Positions 35,765-42,392 of a DNA stretch of 44,232 nt are shown here, one piece after another. The position numbers and the translations under genes were made by a program. The stretch spans positions 1 through 44,232 of IMG/VR virus record IMGVR_UViG_3300045996_001049; one strand, written 5' to 3'. The stretch comes from a virus. Every line of letters starts with the position of its first letter. Within the stretch, counting starts at the first letter, position 1. Under the pieces are notes generated by a model. It was not told the DNA's origin. It did not search any database and saw nothing but the letters and a program-made list of their open reading frames with translations.

Positions 35765-35793
35765 ATTATAGGACGTATTGGGGATGATGTCAA
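35765..35793 (-). promoter_or_regulatory. Strong early promoter, minus strand
   Basis: Minus strand: consensus TTGACA, 17 bases, consensus TATAAT. Flanks (GTC before the -35, ACGTCC before the -10) match the two downstream early promoters. Confidence 0.9.
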
Positions 35794-36138: not shown

Positions 36139-36166
36139 TTGACATCCTCTGTAGACCTGCTACAAT
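36139..36166 (+). promoter_or_regulatory. Strong early promoter, plus strand
   Basis: TTGACA, 16 bases, TACAAT. It drives the plus-strand block starting at 36224. Downstream, the leader has three copies of AGACGAA (near 36179, 36190 and 36201). Confidence 0.85.
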
Positions 36167-38495: not shown

Positions 38496-38524
38496 TTGAC
38501 ACCCTATTTCAAACCGTTTATACT
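38496..38524 (+). promoter_or_regulatory. Strong promoter, plus strand
   Basis: TTGACA, 17 bases, TATACT, 45 bases before the gene at 38570. The leader carries two AGACGAAG copies. Confidence 0.85.
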
Positions 38525-38804: not shown

Positions 38805-39002
38805 ATGAAAACCTACAAGATAATCAGACACTTCTTCAAGTCCAACCGAAAGCAAACGCTTATAACGGGCTTGTCTTTGGAAACGGCCCAAGCGCATTGT
38901 TCAAACCCTGAAACCTCTTCCCGAACGGCGACAAGCAAAACCGCAAAGGAACGCACAAAACGAAGCGGCCCCTGGTTCGACGGATATTCCGAAGAAAAAT
39001 AA
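38805..39002 (+). CDS. Small phage-conserved protein
   Basis: A 65-aa basic protein: KTYKIIRHFFKSNRKQTLIT, then SLETAQAHCSNPETSSRTAT, then SGPWFDGYSEEK. The pattern Y-K-I-I-R, L-E-x-A-Q-x-H-C-x-x-P-E-T-S-S-x-T and P-W-F-D-x-Y is widely shared among phages of unrelated hosts; its function is unknown. AAGAGAGGATGAAATAAG leads the ATG. Confidence 0.75.
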   Translation: MKTYKIIRHFFKSNRKQTLITGLSLETAQAHCSNPETSSRTATSKTAKERTKRSGPWFDGYSEEK

Positions 39003-39032
39003 ACAACAATACAACCATTCCAAACAACTTCC

Positions 39033-39067
39033 TTGCTTGCTACAAACCCAAAATGTAGCAAGCAAGA
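39033..39067 (+). ncRNA. 13-bp perfect hairpin
   Basis: CTTGCTTGCTACA (39033-39045) and TGTAGCAAGCAAG (39055-39067) pair perfectly around a 9-base loop. No T run follows. It lies between two genes of the same operon, just before a ribosome binding site, so mRNA protection or processing is more likely than termination. Confidence 0.7.
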
Positions 39068-39087: not shown

Positions 39088-39387
39088 ATGACAGACATTC
39101 AAGAAGAATACAGTGTGAACGAATACGGTCTGATTACTGACCCAGGCAAGTTTGAAGGAGAGCCGATTTATATTCCGGTATTCTATGATTTTTGTCTGGA
39201 ATCGGGAGCCGATGAGGAACTTTACGACGATTGCGAGACTCTCTTTTCTTTCTTCAAGATAGACGGTCTTGATACGGCGCAACATGGCATCCCTGCCGAA
39301 TGTGCAGGAAAAGTCCTTTGTTTGTGGGAAACGGAACAGGGATTCGTTAATCACACATGGTTTAATGAAATTCCAGACAGTATGTAA
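39088..39387 (+). CDS. Acidic phage protein, unknown
   Basis: A 99-aa very acidic protein (MTDIQEEYSVNEYGLITDPG...YDFCLESGADEELYDDCETL). I chose 39088 behind CGAAAGGGAAATGAA. A 13-bp hairpin precedes and a hammerhead ribozyme follows, so its message could be cut out as a separate unit. Charge and size would suit a DNA-mimic-type inhibitor, but this is speculation. Confidence 0.65.
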   Translation: MTDIQEEYSVNEYGLITDPGKFEGEPIYIPVFYDFCLESGADEELYDDCETLFSFFKIDGLDTAQHGIPAECAGKVLCLWETEQGFVNHTWFNEIPDSM

Positions 39388-39388
39388 A

Positions 39389-39440
39389 AGACGAAACTCT
39401 CTTCGGAGAGTCTTAGGCTGATAGCCTAACTGACGAGTCT
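39389..39440 (+). ncRNA. Type II hammerhead self-cleaving ribozyme
   Basis: All core elements are in the right order: AGAC (stem II), GAAA core at 39393-39396, stem III CUCUC-UUCG-GAGAG, GUC with cleavage after C39412, stem I UUAGGC-UGAUA-GCCUAA, core CUGACGA at 39430-39436, and GUCU closing stem II with AGAC. A96-U411 (39396 with 39411) forms the conserved 15.1-16.1 pair. Stems are 4, 6 and 6 bp with no mismatch. Stem II is open, which makes it type II. It starts two bases behind a stop codon and 20 bases before the next gene. Known family, function in phages unsettled. Confidence 0.9.
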
Positions 39441-39459
39441 ATGAAGAAAGGATAATCAA

Positions 39460-39672
39460 ATGCTAGAGAATTGGCGTATAGGCGACAGAGTGAGAATAAA
39501 CGATCCAAGGCATCATTTCCCGAAAGAATACAACGGCAGAGGATACGAGATTATCAGCGCGTTTATCGGAAAAGAATACTCGACAATCTGTTTAAAAGAC
39601 TTAAACGATAGTTACTACGATCAATCCGTAACAATCGGAAGCGACAGGTTTTACTGCTTGGAAAAATGCTGA
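39460..39672 (+). CDS. Small phage protein, KOW-like
   Basis: A 70-aa protein (MLENWRIGDRVRINDPRHHF...). The start W-x-I-G-D-R-V-R-I has the look of a small SH3/KOW-type barrel. GAAGAAAGGATAATCAA leads the ATG; the ribozyme cleavage site is 48 bases upstream. Role unknown. Confidence 0.6.
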   Translation: MLENWRIGDRVRINDPRHHFPKEYNGRGYEIISAFIGKEYSTICLKDLNDSYYDQSVTIGSDRFYCLEKC

Positions 39673-39689: not shown

Positions 39690-40169
39690 ATGGCAAACGC
39701 TACAACTTACAATGGTTATACGAATCAGGAAACCTGGACAGTCAGTTTAATCATCGACAATAACGAGGGACTGTCTGATTACTACACGAATCGAGCCGAA
39801 GAGATTTTTAACGGGAATGAATCAGATACCGACACGCTAGGCGAATGTATCACGAAGCTGGAGCGTGAAATGGAAGGTTTATTCACACAGGATAGAGAGG
39901 ACTTGCCCAAACTTCCCGATCCGTTTGAATCCCTTCTGACAAACGCGCTTCAAAGCGTAAACTTTCGAGAACTCGCAAAAGACTTTATAGAGGAAGCAGA
40001 AAAAGAATGGCAGGAAGAGGAAAACAACAAGCGGCCGGATTTATCCTGCGACCAATGCACTCTTCTTATCCTTAATGGCATCCCTTGCCATGAACTCGGT
40101 TGCCCTAACAAGGGCAAGGTAAAACGAGACGGGGAATGGATTGCAGAAGAAAGCGAAGAGGCGGAATAA
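39690..40169 (+). CDS. Phage-conserved two-part protein (TNxETW family plus C-P-N end)
   Basis: A 159-aa protein; start at 39690 behind AAAAGGAGAGG. Residues 4-110 have the pattern TYNGYTNQETWTVSLIIDNN seen in a widespread phage family. The end (LSCDQCTLLILNGIPCHELG, then CPNKGKVK) is the C-x2-C...I-N-G-x-x-C-H-E-x-G-C-P-N motif that often forms its own small phage protein. The two appear fused here. Function of both is unknown; the second part probably binds zinc. Confidence 0.7.
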   Translation: MANATTYNGYTNQETWTVSLIIDNNEGLSDYYTNRAEEIFNGNESDTDTLGECITKLEREMEGLFTQDREDLPKLPDPFESLLTNALQSVNFRELAKDFIEEAEKEWQEEENNKRPDLSCDQCTLLILNGIPCHELGCPNKGKVKRDGEWIAEESEEAE

Positions 40170-42183: not shown

Positions 42184-42389
42184 ATGAAGTAACCATTAAA
42201 ATCAAACGAGAAGGTAACGAGTATAAAATGTGTTTTGAAGAGGGTGGAGAGGAGAAAGGTCCGTATTGTCTTATTTCAACTGAATTGCTTGAATGGAAAC
42301 CTATGATGGTTTTCGGATATTTATACGAAGCCATTAGAAAGATGAATCAAATGAATGCAGCATTGACAAACAAGACGAAAAACGGATAG
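42180..42389 (+). CDS. Small phage protein, unknown
   Basis: A 69-aa protein (MNEVTIKIKREGNEYKMCFE...), strands then a helix (MVFGYLYEAIRKMNQMNAAL). The ATG overlaps the previous TGA. A promoter overlaps its 3' end. Not recognised. Confidence 0.65.
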   Translation: MNEVTIKIKREGNEYKMCFEEGGEEKGPYCLISTELLEWKPMMVFGYLYEAIRKMNQMNAALTNKTKNG

Positions 42390-42392
42390 AAT
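42363..42392 (+). promoter_or_regulatory. Candidate promoter, plus strand
   Basis: TTGACA, 18 bases, TAGAAT, inside the end of the preceding gene and about 80 bases before the gene at 42472. The spacer contains AAGACGAAA. Confidence 0.5.

Follow-up and report, generated by a model that had tools for sequence, protein, structure and literature searches.

The viral record analysed here, a stretch of 44,232 nt from IMG/VR record IMGVR_UViG_3300045996_001049 that we refer to in full as the window, carries a complete type II hammerhead ribozyme on its plus strand (39389–39440), between two co-directional phage genes. We consider it likely that this is a self-cleaving, non-pseudoknotted type II hammerhead serving as a punctuation mark between cistrons. 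The ribozyme had been proposed from the letters of the DNA alone, and its identity is supported by its sequence, an independent covariance model, compensatory changes among relatives, and its placement.

Read directly, the RNA begins with the 5′ strand of stem II (AGAC, 39389–39392), which forms 4 bp with GUCU (39437–39440) and, like the element as a whole, is supported by covariation in relatives; stem II is open, and stems I and III are closed by loops. Next come the core nucleotides G12 A13 A14 (GAA, 39393–39395), which are invariant among relatives, and the 6-bp stem III hairpin (39396–39411), in which ACUCUC (39396–39401) and GAGAGU (39406–39411) enclose a UUCG loop and A39396–U39411 is the pair closing on the core, A15.1–U16.1. 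The GUC cleavage triplet (39410–39412) lies directly 5′ of the cut that the hammerhead consensus predicts between C17 (39412) and U1.1 (39413). The stem I hairpin (39413–39429) consists of UUAGGC (39413–39418) and GCCUAA (39424–39429) around the loop UGAUA (39419–39423) and has 6 bp, or 7 if U39419–A39423 is counted; it is followed by the second core strand, C3 U4 G5 A6 N7 G8 A9 (CUGACGA, 39430–39436), and the 3′ strand of stem II. All 13 core positions on the acceptance list of PMC3088659 are present, including H17 (C39412), and the core-closing pairs given there correspond to U39413–A39429 (N1.1–N2.1), G39437–C39392 (N10.1–N11.1) and the stem III pair named above. The sequence-only reading agrees with this in its coordinates, its 4-, 6- and 6-bp stems, the core, the triplet and the cut. 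The minimum free energy structure of an isolated 61-nt segment is exactly the ribozyme fold (z = −2.5). Judged by its sequence, the window copy is predicted to cleave itself at 39412/39413.

A lenient type II descriptor applied to 400 dinucleotide shuffles of the whole window gave three weak matches, none of them with stems of at least 6/4/6 bp, and the viral-contig loci of our first scan contain 180 descriptor copies, versus none in the same sequences reversed. Covariance model R1, built from 20 copies in other phages with the window copy left out, scores the latter at 61.9 bits (E = 1.6e-15); both this value and the shuffles, none of which produced an equally strong match, uphold the earlier judgement that a chance match is very unlikely. 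In the alignment of these 20 relatives, all 16 pairs are formed in every row and 13 of the 16 show two-sided changes, distributed over all three stems (stem II occurs as GGAC/GUCC, AGAC/GUCU, GGUC/GACC, GACC/GGUC and UGCC/GGCA), although this covariation serves as an illustration, since the rows were chosen by a descriptor that requires pairing. Over the 44-kb window, R1 finds nothing besides the copy at 39389–39440, and a search for further or degenerate hammerheads in any of the three permutations, tolerating one core substitution, found none elsewhere in the window, which thus has a single copy where the clusters of PMC3088659 have several per operon.

A covariance-model search had been suggested as a check, with the absence of a hit counting against the ribozyme. 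Rfam 15 indeed yields no window match at gathering thresholds: RF02276 (Hammerhead_II) stays below its threshold of 37 bits and does not appear even at E ≤ 10 among the matches listed, a listing that omits one same-clan match with a lower score. At low threshold, a single permuted and truncated Hammerhead_3 match, split into halves, scores 24.2 bits. We reject the missing match as a refutation, since RF02276 overlooks nearly all other intact phage copies too; in 15 array-bearing loci that hold dozens of intact copies it recovers three, all of which have a large loop I. Because RF02276 misses the subclass to which the window copy belongs, a test by Rfam alone would wrongly reject the ribozyme.

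Dividing 171 distinct viral type II copies by the size of loop I accounts for the silence of Rfam. The large-loop subclass (loop I of at least 8 nt) comprises 24 copies, 15 of which have a 3-bp stem II, and corresponds to the published type II consensus; it also provides a positive control, a loop-to-tail pseudoknot of at least 4 bp being possible in 17 of the 24 copies, versus 6.3 expected from swapped tails. The remaining 147 copies, among them that of the window, have a loop I of 5–7 nt (4 nt in one case) and a stem II that is nearly always 4 bp long. The pattern used to fetch the copies fixed GAC/GUC in stem II as well as the GUC triplet, so that the 147:24 ratio is biased. For the short-loop subclass the pseudoknot can be rejected, with 11 of 147 copies able to form it versus 11.7 with swapped tails, and in the window copy the longest Watson–Crick match between loop I and the sequence downstream of stem II is 3 bp, short of the 4 bp used here to define a pseudoknot. 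The Rfam miss is a limit of the model, which describes the pseudoknotted subclass, and not of the motif. For the same reason standard annotation misses these phage elements, and a corrected model could annotate hundreds of phage ribozymes. Reviews describe type II contacts as usually Watson–Crick pairs (PMC6155905). The short-loop subclass may already be covered in part in the supplement of PMC3088659, as that paper notes that the pseudoknot is missing from many hammerheads.

The short-loop copies share a signature of two nucleotides: 143 of the 147 have an A directly preceding stem II on its 5′ side, and 143 have a U directly following the sixth base pair of stem I. A second set of 87 copies, retrieved with a stricter fetch pattern and partly overlapping the first, repeats it (A in 86, U in 80), as do the distinct viral type III copies (A in 34 and U in 33 of 38). 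In the window, these nucleotides are A39388 and U39419, the first nucleotide of loop I, which adjoins residue 1.6. In the crystal structures of the sTRSV and Schistosoma hammerheads, one tertiary pair is common to both: the last A of loop II forms a Hoogsteen pair with the U next to residue 1.6 (PMC2553840). The type II copies show the identical register when loop II is opened 5′ of that A, which makes A39388 the equivalent of the last loop II nucleotide. From this agreement in sequence we infer that the window copy uses a Hoogsteen contact between A39388 and U39419 in its stem I loop.

The ribozyme is placed in sense between the stop codon of one ORF and the ribosome-binding site of the next, as in the known phage clusters. 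The upstream ORF (39088–39387, +; 99 aa), which has relatives in two other loci (L002 and L003), ends with TAA (39385–39387) 1 nt before stem II. The AUG of the downstream ORF (39460–39672, +; 70 aa) lies 19 nt past the ribozyme and 47 nt past the predicted cut, and is preceded by the Shine-Dalgarno-like sequence AAAGGA (39447–39452, +). Neither ORF has a match in PHROGs or Pfam, and none of 50,697 records of annotated phages resembles the ribozyme region or its flanking genes. Just upstream of the 39088 ORF lies a perfect 13-bp hairpin (CTTGCTTGCTACA / TGTAGCAAGCAAG; 39032–39066, +; fold z = −7.4), whose window form found no match in an exact search of other viral contigs. The record as a whole belongs to a tailed phage with matches to portal, terminase, tape measure and major head proteins; for the major capsid protein, only two Microcystis phages, at 32% identity, were found among annotated phages. 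The window contains no tRNA.

The ribozyme sits in a run of small co-directional genes downstream of a promoter-like site, TTGACA-17-TATACT (38496–38524, +), that matches the consensus at 11 of 12 positions; it is among the few sites with 11–12 matches in a scan whose total number of promoter-like sites is not above chance. Calling the neighbouring genes early genes, as had been done before, is reasonable in view of this strong sigma-70-type promoter and the small size and common direction of the genes, with early status itself remaining a presumption. Other consensus-like sigma-70 promoters (11–12 of 12) occur at 35793–35765 (−), 36139–36166 (+) and 42363–42392 (+), and frame two divergent early gene runs.

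The same placement recurs among relatives. For viral type II copies in sense, the main peaks lie at −1 to +3 nt from the stop codon to stem II and at 14–30 nt from the ribozyme to the start codon, the window spacings being 1 and 19 nt; the tails of these distributions are unreliable because ORFs were called crudely (65 of the 180 copies overlap an ORF call by more than 20 nt). Whole-record scans (L375–L379) revealed arrays of 7–11 type II copies on one strand, as in a 39-kb record (G016) with 11 copies within 5 kb (G016:14425–19244; L375). The intervals in such arrays frequently contain a single ORF, and in several of them the A directly before stem II belongs to the stop codon itself, TAG or TAA. 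Neighbours in an array differ in stems I and III and keep a constant core. Of the copies that lie outside any fetch pattern, the core is exact in 65 and carries one substitution in 1 + 1; by this sequence evidence the ribozyme core is under selection among relatives. Such hammerheads are phage-associated: one pattern matches at least 149 viral loci, against 16 stretches in the genomes of bacteria and archaea (257 Gb).

Hammerheads of type I (L173–L250 and other loci) and type III (L124–L172 among others) are both common in phage contigs too. Type I copies are placed similarly to type II, and type III copies lie 20–80 nt past the stop codon. Scans with equal fixed-base content returned 106 stretches of type I, 102 of type II and 49 of type III. 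A lean towards type II is seen only in loci with more than one copy (15 of 102, versus 3 of 106 for type I and 1 of 49 for type III). We considered that type II might be favoured since its hairpins cap both new ends, and rejected this idea: type II is not preferred overall over type I in phages, so hairpin protection of both ends cannot be the general selective reason.

Punctuation between cistrons, the reading that we consider likely, would work as follows. A polycistronic mRNA, probably started at 38496–38524, would be transcribed through the ribozyme, which would fold with its 4-bp stem II and with the stem I loop docked on stem II via the U39419–A39388 Hoogsteen contact. The mRNA would then cut itself between C39412 and U39413, most likely co-transcriptionally. 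The upstream piece would end in the UUCG-capped stem III hairpin and a 2′,3′-cyclic phosphate, and the downstream piece would start with a 5′-OH and the stem I hairpin, with 47 nt to the AUG of the 39460 ORF and an intact ribosome-binding site. The two genes would thereby come to lie on separate mRNAs with structured ends, with no need for a host RNase, and each cistron would be freed from common decay. Hairpins and modified ends are expected to slow exonucleases and 5′-end-dependent decay, and the benefit would presumably be independent stability or translation of each cistron. Several observations speak against punctuation. The window has one copy, so that most junctions in the same operon would stay uncut, and in longer transcripts ribozyme-free folds are predicted to be more stable by 2–3 kcal/mol, according to nearest-neighbour energies that ignore tertiary contacts and co-transcriptional folding. 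Further points against it are the ribozyme of the nearest phage and the L002 record, both described below, and the lack of a preference for type II over type I. Whether the Rfam-invisible subclass with its conserved A–U contact constitutes a general, host-RNase-independent punctuation system in environmental phages, which would resolve whole early operons into mRNAs of a single cistron by means of as many as 11 ribozymes each, lodged between stop codons and ribosome-binding sites, we regard as an evenly balanced question.

A competent hammerhead could also lower or tune expression, if the cut leaves the upstream or downstream message unprotected, perhaps in a manner gated by translation. While stopped at the UAA (39385–39387), a ribosome would sit over stem II and the first part of stem III and would thereby hold up folding. 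In most relatives the stop codon directly adjoins stem II, and the context from 39340 onwards favours folds in which the ribozyme pairs with the upstream coding sequence. However, tight packing is to be expected of compact phage genomes, and same-strand gene gaps in the loci are short (median 27 nt); moreover, where an array has a ribozyme behind almost all of its genes, the arrangement resembles punctuation more than selective tuning. We therefore think tuning unlikely as the role of the window copy.

The closest relative with an early region, a phage in a 62-kb record (G019) whose major capsid protein is 95% identical to that of the window phage, bears on whether the ribozyme has a role at all. 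Its early region has one ribozyme, of the pseudoknotted subclass (L386:1131–1196, −; G019:21131–21196), with a 6-bp loop-to-tail pseudoknot and a core, CUGAAUGA, that has one extra nucleotide at N7 and is unique among about 300 distinct copies; this CUGAAUGA copy is possibly inactive, or possibly a new core variant. It follows an unrelated gene, and the hairpin before that gene (L386 around 1475–1519) is made of the same TTGCTTGCTA repeat as that of the window, with its arms swapped. In addition, the window genes 38805–39002 and 39690–40169 correspond to one fused 152-aa ORF in this phage (L386/L385; G019:20222–19764); no relatives of the 39690 ORF were confirmed by scan. The block of about 690 bp that separates the two genes in the window, composed of hairpin, ORF, ribozyme and ORF, is without counterpart inside the fused ORF, and the difference would go back either to an insertion that split one gene or to a deletion that fused two. 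Since the gene is unrelated and the place different in G019, the block moves or is exchanged, and the ribozyme is not bound to a particular gene; in the L002 record, a relative of the upstream gene is present and a ribozyme copy is absent.

The window copy could accordingly have come along with an exchanged gene cassette, as a relic or hitch-hiker whose sequence is intact but which has no role in this phage. The nearest phage lends itself to such a view, with hairpin, unrelated gene and ribozyme elsewhere in the operon the homologues of 38805 and 39690 fused without an insertion, and an extra nucleotide in the ribozyme core. Its single ribozyme, with this core and after an unrelated gene, means that the lineage may be able to do without the activity, which also weighs against punctuation. 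The window copy, however, has no defect in core or stems, and the near absence of core substitutions in relatives suggests that decayed copies do not persist for long, which makes a relic highly improbable in our view.

We give similarly little credence to the formation of circular or spliced RNAs, in which the unit between two type II cuts, having half ribozymes at its ends, would re-form a hammerhead and be ligated. The 5′-OH and 2′,3′-cyclic phosphate ends are ligatable, and because the open stem II is mostly GGAC/GUCC, neighbouring halves are often pairable (94 of 151 adjacent pairs). In arrays, however, adjacent stem IIs are compatible no more often than by chance (64 of 104, versus a permuted mean of 63.0) and many arrays mix incompatible stem IIs; neighbours being neither matched nor mismatched beyond chance, we reject both a design for circularisation and an avoidance of cross-pairing. 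Circular or spliced products were sought, and none were found, in PMC3088659, and the single copy of the window leaves no excisable unit. A chance match to the hammerhead pattern can, in view of the shuffles, the score from the independent model and the expected placement between stop codon and ribosome-binding site, be dismissed.

Hammerheads clustered around single genes in (pro)phage operons were described, and processing into single-gene mRNAs was proposed for them, as early as 2011 (Perreault et al. 2011, PMC3088659); cleavage was shown there for tandem phage hammerheads in vitro and for one triple arrangement in E. coli (PMC3088659). Both the ribozyme type and the idea of single-gene mRNAs are thus already known, and the window copy is a new example, in a subclass that public models miss. 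It shares core, permutation and operon setting with the type II hammerheads of bacteria, prophages and metagenomes in that study. In the same paper, however, the type II consensus has a pseudoknot between loop I and the 3′ tail in the majority of cases, whereas the window copy and most viral copies combine a loop I of 5–7 nt with a 4-bp stem II and show no pseudoknot signal beyond background. Likewise, RF02276 has the same permutation and core and is modelled on the pseudoknotted subclass. With the sTRSV-type (type III) hammerheads the window copy shares the A–U Hoogsteen register, but type III molecules have a closed loop II and an open stem III, whereas the window copy has its loop II opened, with the A directly preceding stem II on the 5′ side. 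The HDV-like theta ribozymes of gut phages, which are found at the 3′ ends of tRNAs and serve tRNA processing (PMC10879173), are likewise small, self-cleaving and situated in Caudoviricetes operons, but differ in fold.

Placement, arrays and the A–U signature lead to simple predictions on the role of phage hammerheads, a question since 2011: 5′-OH ends should occur at U39413, and activity should be lost in mutants of A39388 or U39419. Specialists aware of the 2011 work will find little surprise in the ribozyme itself, yet the question of its function becomes testable. The early mRNAs of phage T7 are separated at RNase III sites, for which host RNase III is required. There, too, a polycistronic early transcript is cut between a stop codon and the next ribosome-binding site, with hairpins at the new ends, a likeness that is one of analogy and not of kinship; T7 depends on host RNase III for this step, whereas the window RNA is predicted to cut itself.
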